A DNA stretch of 31,219 bases from a virus, in the IMG/VR virus record IMGVR_UViG_3300036820_000059, positions 1 to 31,219 of that record, one strand, 5' to 3'. Made by a program: the position numbers and the translations under genes. Below are positions 364-25,595 of this stretch, in pieces; the stretch's first letter is position 1; each line of letters starts with the position of its first letter. The notes below the pieces were generated by a model. The model worked only from the letters and a program-made list of their open reading frames with translations, did no database searches and was not told the origin of the DNA.

Positions 364-677
364 TGTCGCGCGCGTCCGCCTACACGGCTGCGGAACTGGC
401 GACGCTGCAGCGCATGCGGGCCGAACGCGCCTCCACCGGCGCGATCGCCAAGGCGCTCGGGCGCTCCAAATCTTCCGTGACGAACCGCATCGAGCGGCTC
501 GAGCTGCGGCCGTTTTATGCGCATATCGCCTGGAGCGGCCGCACGTTGCATGCCGATCCCCGCGCCTTGGCCGAGCGCGACCAGCGCCTGGCGGTGGCGC
601 CGCGCGACCTCACGGCCGCGCTGTGCGGCGATCCGCTGCCCGGCTATTCGGCGCTTGAGCGCCGCGGCGGCGCCTAG
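363..677 (+). CDS. GcrA/SANT-like helix-turn-helix protein
   Basis: The N-terminal 45 residues form a compact helix-turn-helix: TAAELATLQRMRAE, then a recognition segment AIAKALGRSKSSVTNRIERL. The pattern IA-x-x-LGRS-x-x-x-V-x-x-R-x-x-RL-x-L resembles the N-terminal DNA-binding region of the alphaproteobacterial cell-cycle regulator GcrA and generic Myb/SANT-like phage HTH proteins. The remaining 60 residues are Arg/Ala-rich and not recognised. The start may be the ATG at 363, used here, which overlaps the upstream TGA, or the GTG at 360 in the same frame. It lies between GapR-like and adenine methyltransferase genes, so a regulator of early phage transcription or replication is plausible. 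The HTH is visible; the GcrA link is only a resemblance. Confidence 0.7.
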   Translation: MSRASAYTAAELATLQRMRAERASTGAIAKALGRSKSSVTNRIERLELRPFYAHIAWSGRTLHADPRALAERDQRLAVAPRDLTAALCGDPLPGYSALERRGGA

Positions 678-1373
678 ATGGGCGCGCCGCTGACCATCCG
701 CGAGACGGCGATGCCCGGCGGCGGCTGGCCGTTCGGCGCGCTGGTGCCGTTTTCCTACGATCTGTTGATGGTCGATCCGCCATACCCGACCGTGCTGCGC
801 TCGCCGAAAGGCGAGGCGAAGTCATCGATGGCCAAATACGGCGCGATGCCGTGGCCGGCGATCGAGGCACTCCCGATCGGCCAGCTCGCGGCGCGCGACT
901 GCCTGCTGTGGCTGTGGTGCACCTGGCCGTTGTTGCTCGACGGCGGCGATCCGCGCGCGCATTTTGTCGGCGCCGACGCCTCGCGATCGCCGGTCGGGGC
1001 GTGCCTGAAGCGCTGGGGCTTTCGCTACGTGACCGGAGGCGCCTGGCTCAAGCGGCGTTCGCGCGGCGGTGTCTCCTTCGGCACCGGCTACCGGCTGCGC
1101 TCGGCCTGCGAGCCGTTCCTGATCGGGATCACCGGATCGCCGGTGACCTCGCGCAGCGTGCGCAACTTCGTCGACGGCCTGGCGCGCGAGCATTCGCGCA
1201 AGCCCGAGGAGGCTTATGCCGCCTGCGAGCAGCTGATGCACGGCGCGCGCTATGCCGAGCTGTTCTCGCGCACGTCGCGGCCGCGCTGGGACTGCTGGGG
1301 CCTGCAGGCCGGCATGTTTGATCCCGTCGTCAGGCTCAATGCGGTGCCGCTCGCCGACCAGGTGGCCGCATGA
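678..1373 (+). CDS. MT-A70 family adenine-N6 DNA methyltransferase
   Basis: The protein has 231 residues. The catalytic DPPY motif is at residues 33-36 within LLMVDPPYPT, as in N6-adenine methyltransferases; MT-A70 members usually carry DPPW/DPPY. Further family marks are the Trp-rich strand WLWCTWPLLL after motif IV, a KRWGF-x-Y segment, and the late motif GTGYRLRSACEPFLIG, which helps form the SAM pocket. It ends in a WDCWG-type tail typical of phage MT-A70 proteins. The expected activity is methylation of adenine in DNA, either to protect phage DNA from host restriction or to mark it for regulation; the target site cannot be read from the sequence. It starts directly after the upstream TAG, and its stop overlaps the next ATG. 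Confidence 0.9.
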   Translation: MGAPLTIRETAMPGGGWPFGALVPFSYDLLMVDPPYPTVLRSPKGEAKSSMAKYGAMPWPAIEALPIGQLAARDCLLWLWCTWPLLLDGGDPRAHFVGADASRSPVGACLKRWGFRYVTGGAWLKRRSRGGVSFGTGYRLRSACEPFLIGITGSPVTSRSVRNFVDGLAREHSRKPEEAYAACEQLMHGARYAELFSRTSRPRWDCWGLQAGMFDPVVRLNAVPLADQVAA

Positions 1374-2314
1374 GCTGGCAGGAGCAAAAACCGCCGCCGC
1401 CGCGGGCACCGCCGGAGCGCGAGCGGCCGCGGCGGTTTTTCTGGTGCAAAATTCCCAACGAGTTTCCCGATCATCCGCTGCTGCGCGCGGCCGCGCTGAA
1501 GGCACGGGTGCCGGTCCATCAAGTTGTCGCCGTTGCGTTGCGTCTCGATTGCCTCGCCAATGCCAGTGAGCCACGCGGTTCGGTCGCGGACATGAACGTC
1601 ACCGAATTCGCCGCCTCGCTTCAGCTTCGCCCCGACGCCGTGGCGCGGATCCGTGCCGCCTTCGAAGACCCGGACATTTTCTGGATCGACCAGGATTTCC
1701 TCACGGGCTTCCAGGCGCGCAATCCGGAATCCGAGGATCACACGGCGGCAGAACGGCAGCGCCGTCACCGGGCCAAGCTCAAAGCGGAGCGCCACGGCTC
1801 TACCGGCGCGACGGGACCACCGCTTATCCACAGTCACGTGACGTCACGCCGTGACAGCGTGACGGTCACGGCAAGAGAAGAGAAAAATAAAAGCTCTCTT
1901 GCTGTTAGCTCAGAGGCTGCGCGCGAGCGCGCGCGAGTCGCTGGGGATAACTCTGCGGACAAAGCGAGCGGCACCGCTGCAGGGCCGTCCGAAGACGGCG
2001 CCAGCGGCGCCACGGCCGATGCCGACAACGCTGCGGCGCTCTGGCTCGCCAGTGAAGGCACTCGCATCGTCACCGAGCAGCTGCTGGAAAATCGCGGCAA
2101 GGCGGAGCTGCTCGTCTCGCGCTGGCGCGACCAGGAGCTCGGCGGCAATGCGGCCGCGCTGGCCGAGATCATCCGCGGCGCCGAGAAGACGGGGCTGTTC
2201 GGCGCCACTTTCCTCAACCTGATCGTCGTCGGCATCCGCGACGCCAAGCGGCGCGCCATCGCGCAAGGCGAGCTGCGACTGCCGGTACTGGCCAGCGAGC
2301 GGAAAATGGGATGA
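1370..2314 (+). CDS. Replication-initiator-like protein (lambda O-like in layout)
   Basis: The protein has 314 residues. The N-terminal 120 look like a winged-helix/replication domain of the kind found in phage replication proteins: FFWCKIPNEFPDHPLL, then helices around VAVALRLDCLAN and MNVTEFAASLQL, ending with DIFWIDQDFLTGF. A charged segment follows (ERQRRHRAKLKAER), then a low-complexity Ala/Ser/Gly stretch, then a helical C-terminus. The linker part of the gene (about 1824-1950) carries a DnaA box, short iterons and an AT-rich run. This arrangement matches lambda gene O, where the origin lies inside the initiator gene. No helicase or helicase loader is recognised next to it. The call rests mainly on layout and the embedded origin-like DNA; direct homology to a named initiator was not established. 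Confidence 0.6.
   Translation: MSWQEQKPPPPRAPPERERPRRFFWCKIPNEFPDHPLLRAAALKARVPVHQVVAVALRLDCLANASEPRGSVADMNVTEFAASLQLRPDAVARIRAAFEDPDIFWIDQDFLTGFQARNPESEDHTAAERQRRHRAKLKAERHGSTGATGPPLIHSHVTSRRDSVTVTAREEKNKSSLAVSSEAARERARVAGDNSADKASGTAAGPSEDGASGATADADNAAALWLASEGTRIVTEQLLENRGKAELLVSRWRDQELGGNAAALAEIIRGAEKTGLFGATFLNLIVVGIRDAKRRAIAQGELRLPVLASERKMG
1824..1950. other. Candidate replication origin inside the initiator-like gene
   Basis: A perfect consensus DnaA box, TTATCCACA, lies at 1824-1832. Six pentamers GTCAC or its complement GTGAC follow directly, at 1833, 1838, 1843, 1851, 1859 and 1865, all within 37 bases. Next comes the purine-rich AT tract at 1873-1893, the only such stretch in this GC-rich block. 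A second, one-mismatch DnaA box in opposite orientation (TGGGGATAA) is at 1942-1950. DnaA boxes, iterons and an easily melted tract are the parts of a theta-type origin. Function is inferred. Confidence 0.6.
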
Positions 2315-2832
2315 CCGACCGGCGCTGGATGGCGGAGCGGTCGCGCAAAAGCTGGCGATCGCGCAAGCGCCGGCAGGCCGCGCTCGCCGCGGCGGGGAGC
2401 GGACAGAATTCGCCGGCGCTGGTGCCGGCAGAGGAGGGCACTATGGACAGCAGCACGGACCGCCTGGCCGACCCGGGCGACAATTTTCGGCGGGCGCCAC
2501 GATCGACAGCGCCGCGTTACGCGCCGGCGAGCGCAGCGGCCGACCGCATGCCGGCGGTCGAGCCGGGGCCGCAAGGCCCGAAGCCGGCGCAGGAGATTTG
2601 CGAGCGCTTACTGCAAGCTCGTGCGCGCTTGGCGGCCGCGACCGACCGCTTCGAGCCGGTGCTGGCCTCGATCACCGGGCGGCCGCTGCAGCGGCCGGAC
2701 GCGGACGCTCCGGCACGTGCGGCGGCAGATTTTACGCGGCTGTTCCCGGCGCTGGAGCGGCTGACGGCCGATCTCCTTGAAGAGATCGCGCGCATCGAGG
2801 ACCGGGTGCGGGAACTCGACGTCGTGCTGTGA
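2311..2832 (+). CDS. Hypothetical early-block protein with C-terminal coiled coil
   Basis: This 173-residue protein is not recognised. The N-terminus is very basic (RSRKSWRSRKRRQ), the middle is Ala/Pro-rich and probably disordered, and the last 75 residues are helical with a likely coiled coil (ALERLTADLLEEIARIEDRVREL). The start overlaps the previous stop as ATGA; an internal ATG at 2443, after a GAGGAGGG-like Shine-Dalgarno, is an alternative and would give only the C-terminal part (130 residues). It sits where lambda-type phages place a helicase loader, but no loader or ATPase motif is visible. Confidence 0.6.
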   Translation: MTDRRWMAERSRKSWRSRKRRQAALAAAGSGQNSPALVPAEEGTMDSSTDRLADPGDNFRRAPRSTAPRYAPASAAADRMPAVEPGPQGPKPAQEICERLLQARARLAAATDRFEPVLASITGRPLQRPDADAPARAAADFTRLFPALERLTADLLEEIARIEDRVRELDVVL

Positions 2833-2841
2833 CCATCGCTC

Positions 2842-2873
2842 CGCGAGAAAAGGGCTCCCAGCCTTTTCTCGCG
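2842..2873 (+). other. 12-bp perfect hairpin in a 166-base gene-free stretch
   Basis: The arms CGCGAGAAAAGG (2842-2853) and CCTTTTCTCGCG (2862-2873) pair perfectly around an 8-base loop. It lies 10 bases after a stop codon, so it may end or process the early-block mRNA, but no T-run follows. The rest of the gap (2833-2998) holds a weaker inverted repeat around 2892-2914, a T6 run at 2952-2957 and no convincing gene. Confidence 0.5.
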
Positions 2874-2998
2874 CGACTGACGTGAAACAGGTGCGGCGCG
2901 GGCTTCGACGCCGCGTGAAGCCACGCCGCTAAGACCATCAACCGCCTGTTGTTTTTTGCGTGGCGGGACTATCCTCCCTGCGTCGCCGGGAGGGCGCG

Positions 2999-3280
2999 GT
3001 GCCGAGCCTTTACCAGATGGCCAAGGCGGTCGAGGATCTGGTCGCGCTCAAACGCGACCACCTGCAGGGCTTCGAGCGCGCGAGCTACGACCGCGGCTTT
3101 GAGCCCGGCCCCGATCTGGCGTTCGCCGGCGTGCGGGTGATGATCATGGAGGGCGAGGCGGCCTACCGGCTCTTACGGCGGTTGGCGCCGCAGCAGGACG
3201 CGCTTGAGCGCTGGCTCGCGGAGCGCTCGGTCGCTGCGGTTGAACACGAGCCGGTTCCCGCAAGTCCCGGTGGGATTTAA
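2999..3280 (+). CDS. Hypothetical phage protein
   Basis: This is a protein of about 93 residues of unknown function. GTG at 2999 is chosen because a GGGAGG Shine-Dalgarno lies 5 bases upstream; a GTG at 2960 in the same frame would add 13 residues without a ribosome site. The sequence is mostly helical: MAKAVEDLVALKRDHL, then SYDRGFEPGPDL, then a helix with RLLRRLAPQQDALERWLAE. There are no membrane segments or known motifs. It follows a gene-free stretch, so it may open a new transcription unit. Confidence 0.6.
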   Translation: MPSLYQMAKAVEDLVALKRDHLQGFERASYDRGFEPGPDLAFAGVRVMIMEGEAAYRLLRRLAPQQDALERWLAERSVAAVEHEPVPASPGGI

Positions 3281-3313
3281 TCAATCTTTCAGCTGTCGCG
3301 TTATGGTTCGGCG

Positions 3314-3715
3314 ATGACGTCGATGCGCCACCACGTGACGTTTCGATTCCGGCTGCCGCCGGCATTGGCGATGCGGGCGCCGTTGGGATTCTGGCCGCGC
3401 TCGCCGCGCGGCTGCACGCTCGACGTCGGCGACCACGGCAACGTGCTGGTGTCCTCGGTCGATCACAGCGAAATCTTCGCGCGCAAGCAGGTGCTGCAAA
3501 CCGCCGGCGCCTTCCTGCGCACGACCGATCCGGTGACTCAACCCGAGACATTGCTCGGCGAACTCTCCGCGCCGTCATGTCGGGAGCGTCTTGAGGTCTA
3601 TTCGATCACGCTCGGCGCCGCTGTTTCGATCGCGCGGTCCGATCCGCACCGCGCTCCGGTGCTGACCTTCAACCGCGAGTGGCAGTTGACGCTTCTTAAC
3701 CTTGGCGCCGATTAA
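3314..3715 (+). CDS. Hypothetical protein
   Basis: This 133-residue frame contains probable beta strands (HHVTFRFRL, CTLDVGDHGNVLVSS) and a C-terminus LTFNREWQLTLLNLG. No family is recognised. No clear Shine-Dalgarno precedes ATG 3314, and the second ATG (3323) is equally possible. The amino-acid composition is ordinary, and no competing frame on either strand looks better. The frame fills the space between two better-supported genes, which is the main support. Confidence 0.5.
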   Translation: MTSMRHHVTFRFRLPPALAMRAPLGFWPRSPRGCTLDVGDHGNVLVSSVDHSEIFARKQVLQTAGAFLRTTDPVTQPETLLGELSAPSCRERLEVYSITLGAAVSIARSDPHRAPVLTFNREWQLTLLNLGAD

Positions 3716-8725: not shown

Positions 8726-8943
8726 TGCGCCCGCGTCCCGTCACTGACGACGAGAACCCCGCGGTCGCCGCGCTGCGTCGCGCGATGAGCGCCGGAATTA
8801 TCGCCACCGTGACCAGCGTGTCGATCGACGGCCTGGTGACCTTCGAATGGTGCGACAATCAAGCGCCTGGCGGCGTCGTGCGCGCCACGATGCACGAGGA
8901 GCTCGCCGACATGCTGTTCGAGGAGATCCGTTACCTGCAATGA
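8722..8943 (+). CDS. Small phage protein, second of a tandem pair
   Basis: This 73-residue protein is similar to the one upstream: VTDDENPAVAALRRAMSAG, then VTSVSIDGLVTFEW, then LADMLFEEIRYL. Shared positions include the VTDD start, the AG after the first helix, the VT-x-VS-x-x-G-x-[IV]TF-x-W strand pair and the ML...I..L helix. GTG 8722 overlaps the upstream stop (GTGA); ATG 8725 is an equal choice. Its own stop overlaps the next ATG. Function unknown. Confidence 0.75.
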   Translation: MMRPRPVTDDENPAVAALRRAMSAGIIATVTSVSIDGLVTFEWCDNQAPGGVVRATMHEELADMLFEEIRYLQ

Positions 8944-9617
8944 CCGACAAACCGACGCGCCTCACCATCCGACTCGGCGAGGATGCGCGGACCTATTTGC
9001 AGGCTGAAGCTGCGAAGCGTGGCCTCGACGAGGCCGCCTTTGCGCGCATGCTGATCTACGAGCGCATGAACGGAGCGGATCTGATAGCGGGACCGGCCTG
9101 GAGCGCATCCAGCAACTGCACCCCGCTGAGGCGAGGCGGCGGGGGCGCCCCCGCCGCCTCGCCGGTGTCCGTTCAGTCTGAGTTTGCCGACGGCGACGGA
9201 GCGCTCGACGCTCGCGCCACTGACGCGGATCTCGCCGCCGCCGGCGAACCGCGCGCCGAAGAGTTCGATATCGCGGCCGATGCCGATGGCGGCAATCCGG
9301 AAGCGATCGCCGCCGTCGACGCGCTGTTGGCGGCGGGGCCTAGCTTCCTCGACAGCCTGATTGCCGAACGCCGATCGACAGCGCCGGCGCCACAACCGCG
9401 CGTGCCGATGCGCATGCCTCAGCGTCAGATCGCGCCTGCTCCTCGGAATTACCGCGCGCAACGCCAGGGTCTCCAGCCATCCTATGGGCCGGGCTCGCTC
9501 ACGCGGCCGCTGGGCGTCAACGAGTATTCCATCGGCGAGATCCAATTCGGCGACGGCTCGCGCAATGTCGGCCGCCAGAACATGGGGCACTTCGGTGTCG
9601 GCCCGCGGCGGCGCTGA
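8940..9617 (+). CDS. Ribbon-helix-helix-like N-terminus with long disordered region
   Basis: The protein has 225 residues. Residues 5-44 (TRLTIRLGEDARTYLQAEAA, then GLDEAAFARMLIYERMNG) look like a ribbon-helix-helix DNA-binding fold: a short strand followed by two helices. The middle is Ala/Asp/Pro-rich and likely disordered. The C-terminus contains YGPGSLTRPLGVNEYSIGEIQFG and ends GHFGVGPRRR, suggesting a second conserved piece. The gene carries the 34-bp palindrome at 9130-9163. ATG 8940 overlaps the upstream stop; a longer open frame back to 8847 has no ribosome site. It could be a transcription regulator or a packaging accessory; neither is shown. Confidence 0.65.
   Translation: MTDKPTRLTIRLGEDARTYLQAEAAKRGLDEAAFARMLIYERMNGADLIAGPAWSASSNCTPLRRGGGGAPAASPVSVQSEFADGDGALDARATDADLAAAGEPRAEEFDIAADADGGNPEAIAAVDALLAAGPSFLDSLIAERRSTAPAPQPRVPMRMPQRQIAPAPRNYRAQRQGLQPSYGPGSLTRPLGVNEYSIGEIQFGDGSRNVGRQNMGHFGVGPRRR
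9130..9163. repeat. 34-bp perfect GC palindrome inside a gene
   Basis: From 9130 to 9163 every base pairs with its mirror position; the 17-base half is GGCGAGGCGGCGGGGGC. It codes for an Arg-Gly-Gly-Gly-Gly-Ala-Pro-Ala-Ala stretch in the linker of the RHH-like protein. It has no loop, so it would form a cruciform or a tight RNA hairpin. It may be an inserted repeat element. Confidence 0.9.
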
Positions 9618-9836: not shown

Positions 9837-10076
9837 ATGCCGCGTTTCGAGTACCGCGTCGAAAGCTTCACGCATCCTCACGGCGTCCACAATCCGACGC
9901 CTTCAGCCACTGACTATCTGGCGCGCGTGAACGAGCTCGGCGCTAAAGGCTGGATGATCGTACCCGCCAGTGGCCTGCCGCCGGGGTGTGTCCTGCTCAT
10001 GCGCGAGGCATGGGGTAGGCCGCAGGATTACGGGATGGATCCTGCGCCAGGATCGATCACTTTTGGAGACGCCTGA
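9837..10076 (+). CDS. Small protein resembling DUF4177 family
   Basis: This 79-residue protein opens with a strand (FEYRVESF) and has the helix-strand unit YLARVNELGAKGWMIVPASG, the pattern seen in DUF4177 proteins (strand, helix with NELGAEGW, strand). The ending is Gly/Pro-rich. It follows the previous stop without a gap and its stop overlaps the next ATG. The family match is a resemblance only; the role is unknown. Confidence 0.6.
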   Translation: MPRFEYRVESFTHPHGVHNPTPSATDYLARVNELGAKGWMIVPASGLPPGCVLLMREAWGRPQDYGMDPAPGSITFGDA

Positions 10077-10363
10077 TGGACCGCGCCACCTTCAAGCTGT
10101 TCATGGCGATCGGCGTGCTGCTCTATGGCGCGCTGTATCTGTGCGCTGTTGTCCTGCTCGGCCTGATCATGAGCGTCTGGCCCGCGTCGCTGCTCGCCAC
10201 CGCAGCGATGGGCGTGAGCTATCTCAGCTACATCGCGCACAGTTGGCCCGACAGCTATCGCGCTGAGGCGATCGCGCCGCTGCTTGTTTGGCTATCGATC
10301 CTGCTCGGCACCGGCGCCGGCCTGATGCTTCTGTTCGCCGAGGTGCCGTCATGGGCTTTCTGA
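10076..10363 (+). CDS. Small membrane protein with three predicted helices
   Basis: This 95-residue protein has three hydrophobic segments: about 8-34 (FMAIGVLLYGALYLCAVVLL), 38-55 (ASLLATAAMGVSYLSYIA) and 67-88 (APLLVWLSILLGTGAGLMLL). Three-helix membrane proteins of this size include class I holins, but the place between terminase and portal and the absence of an endolysin nearby give no further support, so holin is only one option. The ATG overlaps the upstream stop, and the end overlaps the next gene by 13 bases. Confidence 0.65.
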   Translation: MDRATFKLFMAIGVLLYGALYLCAVVLLGLIMSVWPASLLATAAMGVSYLSYIAHSWPDSYRAEAIAPLLVWLSILLGTGAGLMLLFAEVPSWAF

Positions 10364-23989: not shown

Positions 23990-24726
23990 TGCGCGCATTC
24001 TTTATCGCCGCCGCATTTTGGCTCGCATGTCTTGTGCCTGCATCGGCAGGTTACGGCACGCCAACCACGATCTATGTTAGTACAGGCGCGCCGTTTAATT
24101 CGGGCACGGCGGTTGGCCCGACAACCGCCGACGCACCGATCGGTTCACTAGTATGGCTAGAGCCAAGTTCTTTCACAACCAACGGCGTGTCTGTCACTTC
24201 GGTTACCGATACCGCTGGTAACTCGTACAGCATTATCCAATCAGTCGCGACCGAGCTAACGCTCTCGTTTGCCTACTCAATAACGACGAACGATCTGCCG
24301 ATCGGCAGCACGTTCACCGTCACCATGTCGGACGGTAGTCAGTACGGCTTGAACTTCAATGTCTATTCCGTCAGCGGCGTCGCGTCTCTCGACGTATCAA
24401 CGGCCTTCACTTCGACTAGCGGGGGAACGAGTGTCTCGTTGTCCAGCGGTACGTTGGGTACCAGCAGCGATCTGCTCATTGGCTCCGTGATCTGCAACGG
24501 CGCGTCTTGCGGCACCGTAACGGAGAGTTCAGGTTTTACCAATCTCACCGGCGCTGGCGCCTTATCGTTTGGCAGCATTGGCACGGATCAGCCGGCCAGC
24601 ACGACCAGCGCGACCTATCATCCGTCGTGGACCTCTTCGCATGGTTACAGCGCGGTGCTCGTCGCGTTCAAGCCGCTTGCCACTACGCCATGCTCGCTCA
24701 CTTTGGTTGGAGTCGGCAAGTGTTGA
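23989..24726 (+). CDS. Secreted beta-rich protein with Sec signal peptide
   Basis: This 245-residue protein has a signal peptide, MRAFFIAAAFWLACLVPASA, with cleavage after ASA at 20. The mature part is Ser/Thr-rich beta sequence (SLVWLEPSSFTTNGVSVTSV, then SFAYSITTNDLPIGSTFTVT), with SATYHPSWTSSHGYSAVLVA near the end and Cys pairs CNGASC and C-x11-C in the tail. This pattern resembles beta-sandwich domains of fibre or adhesion proteins. GC is lower than in the neighbouring head genes. ATG overlaps the upstream stop. Function unknown. Confidence 0.72.
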   Translation: MRAFFIAAAFWLACLVPASAGYGTPTTIYVSTGAPFNSGTAVGPTTADAPIGSLVWLEPSSFTTNGVSVTSVTDTAGNSYSIIQSVATELTLSFAYSITTNDLPIGSTFTVTMSDGSQYGLNFNVYSVSGVASLDVSTAFTSTSGGTSVSLSSGTLGTSSDLLIGSVICNGASCGTVTESSGFTNLTGAGALSFGSIGTDQPASTTSATYHPSWTSSHGYSAVLVAFKPLATTPCSLTLVGVGKC

Positions 24727-25595
24727 TGCGCGTGGCACTTATTCTTTTTGCCATCGGGCTTGGCTGTTTGGCGCAAGCGCAGACGGTTCGGTTCTCCGGC
24801 AAGCTTCCGGCCTGCACGGCGACGCCGCCGAGTCAGGCGACGGCGGCTGGCTACCACACGCTCGTCATGTGTAACGCCATGACGGATAATTCTCAGGTTG
24901 ACAGGAATGCCACGACCAATCCGTGGTTCCAGTGGTACGCAACCGGCTTTGGCTATGCGATGTCGTCTGGGGTGTTCTCCAACGACGGCACTGGGATGTC
25001 GATCAGCACCAGTCCGGGCAATGGTGGTGGTCCCTATACGGTTGATATCAATTCGGCCGGTAATATCGTCAGCGGCAATTACGTTACAGGTGGTTATTAC
25101 GCTGAGATCACAGCAACGTTTAATCCGGCGACCTGTCAGCAGGCTCCAAATTCATGGCCCGCTGCGGTTTGGGCAGCTTCACCAGCAAGTTTTATTGCCG
25201 GCGCGGGAGGCTCTGAGTTCGTTGAGATCGACAGTTTTGAGTGGCTTAACTGTCAATCGGTTGCAGCAGTCCACGACTGGAGTGGCAGCGGTGTACTGAA
25301 TTGTACCAACTCGGATGCTGTCCTCACGTACACGCCCGATTCCAATCCGCATGTCTACGGAATGCTCTTTATTACGACCACGTCGGGCGGAGGCACCGGC
25401 ACGATCAGTCACTACATCGACAACGTGTTGCAAAACACCCTGACCTACACGACTTCGGGGAAGCCTGATCCCGCGGGAACGTGCGGCAATGGAGCGTTCT
25501 CGACTGCCGATACCCAACAGTGGGCCTTCGCGCTGCAGGCCGGCACCGGCGTTCCGGTCAAATATTCCGGCTTTCACGTCTGGCAGGCGCCGTGA
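24726..25595 (+). CDS. Secreted GH16-like glycoside hydrolase
   Basis: The protein has 289 residues. A signal peptide, MRVALILFAIGLGCLAQA (cleaved after 18), leads to a beta-jelly-roll-like protein with the GH16 catalytic signature: EIDSFE at 167-172 (nucleophile Glu167, Asp169, acid/base Glu172 by family rule). The flanks also fit GH16: GGYYAEITATFNP before, NSWPAAVWA as the usual WPA-x-W strand, AVHDW after, PHVYGMLF (HVY at 209-211), and ISHYIDNVLQNTL as the YIDG-type strand. GH16 enzymes cleave beta-1,3/1,4 glucans and galactans. A role in degrading host capsule or exopolysaccharide would fit. ATG 24726 overlaps the upstream stop; the open frame continuing back to 24507 is ignored. Confidence 0.75.
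   Translation: MRVALILFAIGLGCLAQAQTVRFSGKLPACTATPPSQATAAGYHTLVMCNAMTDNSQVDRNATTNPWFQWYATGFGYAMSSGVFSNDGTGMSISTSPGNGGGPYTVDINSAGNIVSGNYVTGGYYAEITATFNPATCQQAPNSWPAAVWAASPASFIAGAGGSEFVEIDSFEWLNCQSVAAVHDWSGSGVLNCTNSDAVLTYTPDSNPHVYGMLFITTTSGGGTGTISHYIDNVLQNTLTYTTSGKPDPAGTCGNGAFSTADTQQWAFALQAGTGVPVKYSGFHVWQAP

Follow-up and report, generated by a model that had tools for sequence, protein, structure and literature searches.

Positions 1824-1950 of the viral DNA analysed here (the window, a record of 31,219 bases taken at its full length) very likely form a cis element that is bound by an initiator protein, and an origin of replication is the most likely function of this element. Judged from its sequence and by analogy to characterized phages, it is probable that the element is a theta-type origin inside the initiator gene, where the phage initiator would bind, a tract would melt and host DnaA would help. 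The corresponding features are compiled in Table 1.

Table 1. Features of the candidate origin, of the gene that contains it and of the gene upstream.
Feature	Position	Strand	Remarks
MT-A70-type adenine methyltransferase gene	678..1373	+	directly 5' of the initiator gene
Initiator-like gene, 314 aa, containing the candidate origin	1370..2314	+	PHROG matches of homologues; own match weak
N-terminal winged-helix-like DNA-binding domain, residues 36-117	1475..1720	+	AlphaFold pLDDT mostly 84-95
Linker, residues 147-213, predicted to be disordered, holds the array	1808..2008	+	pLDDT mostly under 50
DnaA box 1, TTATCCACA	1824-1832	+	only perfect copy in the window
Six GTCAC/GTGAC pentamers, 37 bp	1833-1869	both	1833+, 1838-, 1843+, 1851-, 1859-, 1865+
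AT-rich, AGA-rich tract, candidate DNA unwinding element	1873..1908	.	AT maximum of the gene
DnaA box 2, TTATCCCCA, one mismatch	1942-1950	-	counterparts in L004, L407 and L413
C-terminal helical domain, residues 211-299	2000..2266	+	confident in the AlphaFold model

The original prediction had described a perfect DnaA box joined to six GTCAC/GTGAC pentamers in 37 bases, and this arrangement was confirmed at 1824-1869. The AT-rich tract and the one-mismatch box on the opposite strand, which were said to follow, were likewise found (1873-1908 and 1942-1950). The tract is the 36-bp AT maximum of the gene (67% AT versus 33% gene-wide) and begins 3 bp past the array. When the whole window was simulated 900 times with Markov models of orders 1-3, the maximum was four pentamers per 37 bp, which occurred once, and the observed pentamer clustering was reached in none of 1000 synonymous-codon shuffles of gene 1370-2314. 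The DnaA boxes by themselves are unremarkable in a single sequence, as 34 of 100 shuffles contained two or more sites with no more than one mismatch; they are significant because they adjoin the array and are placed alike in homologues. The GC skew of the record has no turning point near 1.9 kb.

The array occupies approximately codons 155-167 and lies within the disordered linker between two folded domains. Its proposed location in the linker of an initiator-like gene, which is the layout of lambda O, is supported by composition and by structure prediction (an AlphaFold model built from a 12-sequence alignment). Residues 28-113 align to winged-helix regulators with Z values of about 5-6. A PDB fold search with the whole model yielded generic winged-helix matches for the N-terminal domain and nothing convincing for the C-terminal domain; by analogy with lambda O, the latter is possibly a recruiter of a helicase or a loader. 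Among the weak matches in a viral fold library, the second was "Replication initiation and membrane attachment" (E 0.018) and the fourth "Primosomal protein 1" (E 0.038). The homologues L234 (8.3e-6) and L236 (2.6e-5) from Afipia prophages match phrog_3729, "replication initiation protein", by means of their N-terminal domain and over profile positions 4-123. The window protein has no match to the phrog_3729 profile; its own PHROG match is to phrog_21423 only and is weak (E 0.001), and the homologue L094 matches phrog_21423 together with phrog_3729, again with the N-terminal domain. The putative assignment of gene 1370-2314 to the initiators is supported by the homologues that match phrog_3729 and additionally by the weak viral fold match. 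No sequence match of the window protein to O-like PHROGs was found. By analogy it would work like lambda O, yet it is not classified as an O homologue.

Searches of phages, viral contigs and genome contigs with the single protein P0001 yielded no relatives; these surfaced once a scan for a box plus pentamers had led to L043. The homologues that served for the conservation check were found by protein similarity alone, and for the comparison of linkers they were located by the N-terminal domain alone or, for L004, by the portal gene. Conservation of the iterons and of the box in relatives had been named as a point on which the original prediction would stand or fall, and both are conserved at the DNA level. 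In about a dozen homologues, the DNA is kept and not the peptide. As in the window, the pentamer clustering exceeds that of all synonymous shuffles in five homologues. The same box followed by the same pentamers is present in L043, with a 5-bp difference in spacing, after which the frame is restored; box 1 is read as Leu-Ile-His (LIH) in the window and as Leu-Ser-Thr (LST) in L043. In L060, whose N-terminal domain is 88% identical to that of the window protein, a compensated 1-bp shift has the effect that the last pentamer is read as Thr-Ser-His and not as Thr-Val-Thr (VTSHA versus VTVTA in the window). Furthermore, the iteron type is switched in all or nearly all copies to GTGGC/GCCAC in L069 and to GTGAG/CTCAC in L004, and GTAAC/GTTAC is mixed into the arrays of L070, L405 and L407. 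The iteron-switched homologues retain the box and the AGA/AT tract. In 11 of the 13 array-bearing genes, the AT content peaks 2-19 bp 3' of the array; in L071 the peak is not beside the array. For the 45 bp 3' of the array in 13 homologous genes, AT and AGA contents are above those of all 500 synonymous shuffles. Separately, the distant initiators L396, L398, L402 and L395 contain CAGATA/CAGA repeats just after the start of the linker. These read DTDTDT in some of the proteins, several are preceded by a few GTAAC/GTGAC sites, and they may be a sequence-specific element for melting or single-strand binding.

In most homologues the array is flanked by boxes of the type TTRTCCACA. Across 13 non-redundant genes, the array regions contain ten of them, compared to 0.17 expected from 500 synonymous shuffles, in which the maximum was two. 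At nearly the place of box 1, most homologues contain the sequence YTNTCCRCA. In the window and in nine homologues box 1 faces the array, with its end 0-10 bp 5' of it; the copies in L060, L062 and L070 have two mismatches to TTATCCACA. In L071 and L094 no good box was found directly 5' of the array. Counterparts of box 2 are TGTGGATAA in L004, which is perfect, and TGTGGACAA in L407 and L413. They are on the opposite strand, 33-44 bp past the array compared to 72 bp in the window, and the reading frame of box 2 is constant, encoding a (V/G)DN motif. Both boxes are present in L004; in L405 two boxes are arranged head to head. The assumption that the second box is a chance occurrence, to which the lack of a good copy in the near homologue L060 had given rise, was dropped after L004, L407 and L413 were found. 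A direct box scan of six whole records gave nothing further. Putative DnaA boxes beside the iterons therefore recur as a conserved trait, though they are absent from some homologues. That DnaA takes part in this origin is slightly favoured by these sequence comparisons.

The homologues L072 and L417 have neither a linker nor an array. In the sequences that encode them (L384 and L426), an array of five GTSAC pentamers followed by a CAGA/AT tract was found in intergenic DNA, at a distance from the linker-less initiator of about 3 kb for L072 and about 2 kb for L417. In none of 1500 simulations of L384 did an array of five arise, and 1.18 Mb of unrelated contigs contained one such locus. Simulations and background together give a probability far below 2% that 18 kb would contain an array of this kind. 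Because of the matching design and the nearness, we infer that the intergenic arrays serve the initiators of L072 and L417.

In the proposed mechanism, the winged-helix domain of the 1370-2314 product would bind the GTCAC/GTGAC pentamers, probably as a dimer, since these occur in mixed orientation. The nucleoprotein complex on the array would melt the neighbouring AGA/AT-rich tract 1873-1908, whereupon the C-terminal domain of the initiator would recruit the host helicase or helicase loader. Host DnaA, bound to the two inverted boxes around the array and the melting tract, would aid opening or helicase loading. The binding, melting and replication start of this scheme are drawn by analogy from lambda (PMC7466680, PMC3985674) and SPP1 (PMC6316719). 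A more far-reaching reading, which we put forward tentatively, is that of a portable module with two keys: inverted DnaA boxes would enclose pentamers and a melting tract, the module would reside in the linker of the initiator in most phages and in intergenic DNA in others, the iterons would switch together with the initiator, and GTGAC would recur in unrelated families of phage initiators.

A scan of IMG/VR for four closely spaced GTSAC pentamers identified at least 119 stretches, of which 80 were returned as loci. For family matching, the 46 non-tandem arrays contained in an open frame of 110 codons or more were kept. In these random IMG/VR contigs, the frames with known relatives match overwhelmingly PHROGs for replication initiation, O-like, primosomal and DnaD-like proteins, whereas 50 control frames with GASTC or CASTG arrays matched mostly head and other families and one or two initiators; the comparison shows a contrast and gives no rate, because only the 25 commonest families of each set were compared and one protein may match several. 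The presence of a box as a general trait was rejected: none of the 80 GTSAC arrays, which had been found without using the box, has a perfect box within 60 bp. GTSAC as a universal iteron was rejected as well, because nearly all of 30 chromosomal HTH_36 proteins are without it. Six annotated O-type phages were sampled via the winged-helix domain, disregarding repeats. In at least five of the six, the corresponding linker contains repeats, mostly of a different sequence. The iterons are GGGTGCA, AGGGTGACA, CCTAGGTC and GTCAAAA; Mesorhizobium phage vB_MseS-P1 has GTGAC repeats. No DnaA box was found beside the iterons in these six phages. Since at least five of the six sampled phages have them, iterons in the linker seem to be the general rule, with GTSAC as one recurrent type. 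Flanking DnaA boxes are a trait of this initiator family and not of phage origins generally. The box-pentamer arrangement also occurs in the HTH_36-type initiators L015, L021, L029 and L048, but these were selected for having one. Further GTSAC arrays, many with a purine-rich tract after them, were seen in the unrelated initiators L108, L111, L097, L123, L132, L142 and L151 (HTH_36, replisome organiser, phrog_2509 and others) and are candidate origins.

Four other explanations were weighed against an origin that uses both the initiator and DnaA. The strongest of them, which we regard as possible if doubtful, is an origin for which the initiator and the pentamers suffice, the DnaA-box-like 9-mers being a leftover or protein-coding (LST, VDN). 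It would account for the degenerate boxes of several homologues, for the lack of a box in most other phages with GTSAC arrays and for the invariant frame of box 2 with its (V/G)DN motif. It is at odds with the excess of TTRTCCACA boxes over synonymous shuffles (ten versus 0.17), with the two reading frames in which box 1 is found and with the box pairs of L004 (both) and L405 (head-to-head). That the sequence is merely low-complexity coding DNA for VT repeats, without a role of the DNA, is hardly credible any more: the array does lie in a predicted disordered linker, but the synonymous shuffles, the frame-shifted conservation, the concerted switching of iterons and the intergenic copies already contradict this explanation.

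Two alternatives accept a role of the DNA and assign it a different function. As an operator, the pentamers would allow the initiator or another winged-helix regulator to repress its own operon, and both the regulator-like fold of the winged-helix domain and the inverted pentamers, which fit dimer binding, are compatible with this. The position of the array in the middle of the gene and away from a promoter (no sigma-70-like match was found in 600-3400), the AGA/AT tract that follows even intergenic arrays, and the occurrence of such arrays in initiator genes of unrelated families make an operator unlikely. Sites for partition, packaging or recombination are also clusters of short repeats, so that the array could resemble one of these; such a function is very improbable, however, given that the array is always linked to an initiator gene and an AGA/AT tract and that the genes with GTSAC arrays elsewhere are replication initiators.

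Origins within initiator genes are already known. In iteron plasmids of the P1, pSC101 and RK2 type, iterons of about 17-22 bp, an AT-rich region and DnaA boxes form a unit, which is usually located beside the rep gene. The window unites the same three elements; the difference is that its candidate origin is within the initiator gene. In lambda, ori consists of iterons and an AT-rich tract mid-way in the initiator gene O (PMC7466680). Common to lambda and the window are repeats inside the initiator gene between the DNA-binding and C-terminal domains, an adjoining AT-rich tract, and repeated sites for initiator dimers, which are presumed for the window. Lambda has four 19-bp iterons, whereas the window has a 5-bp core in both orientations with a spacing of mostly 5-8 bp and DnaA boxes that directly flank the array; no sequence relation was found between the window protein and O. 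DnaA at a phage origin has a precedent, because in vitro it footprints DnaA-box-like sites near lambda ori, downstream of pO (PMC3985674). In PMC6316719, oriL of SPP1 is described as repeats in the initiator gene (gp38) plus an AT-rich unwinding element, as in the window; DnaA boxes, present in the window, are not mentioned in that description. SPP1 further differs in its host phylum and in its known loader gp39 and helicase gp40; in the window, nothing recognisable as a gene for a helicase or a loader was found downstream of the initiator gene. In the open-access literature, which largely excludes subscription journals, the pentamer class, the flanking pair of DnaA boxes, the concerted switching and the in-gene and moved-out versions were not found. 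To our knowledge, in most temperate phages the origin is unmapped. Across several unrelated families, origins are predicted from sequence by a short signature: GTSAC pentamers and then an AGA/AT tract, located in the linker of a gene for a winged-helix protein. Phages with the origin in the gene, paired with those in which it has moved out, offer a natural experiment on the reasons for keeping an origin within the initiator gene, and the specificity of initiators for their DNA can be tested on the iterons that switched in concert.

The relatives of the portal gene include epsilon15-type podoviruses, and Afipia genomes carry homologues of gene 1370-2314, which makes a Rhizobiales host likely. 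The record is best read as a temperate, epsilon15-like phage whose hosts are of the Rhizobiales type. The ORF next after the initiator gene (2311-2832) has no match in Pfam, PHROG or NCBIfam. Positions 1386-1440, where the initiator gene begins, contain an inverted repeat with 18-nt arms that are 94% complementary; the RNA forms a stable, attenuator-like hairpin with a UUUUU end (z -2.1). The corresponding stretches in L060, L043 and L061 fold no better than shuffles. In 24000-25500 the GC content is 57%, compared to 62-70% elsewhere in the record, and these genes were possibly acquired. Most proteins of L005, a 24-kb contig, are 94-100% identical to those of the window; in orfs 8847-9617, 9837-10076 and 10076-10363 the identity is only about 76-82%, possibly because of a recent swap of a stretch between the terminase and portal genes. 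The MT-A70-type gene is the upstream neighbour at five homologous loci as well (L127, L385, L386, L115 and L004), and its product might mark the origin or the genome.
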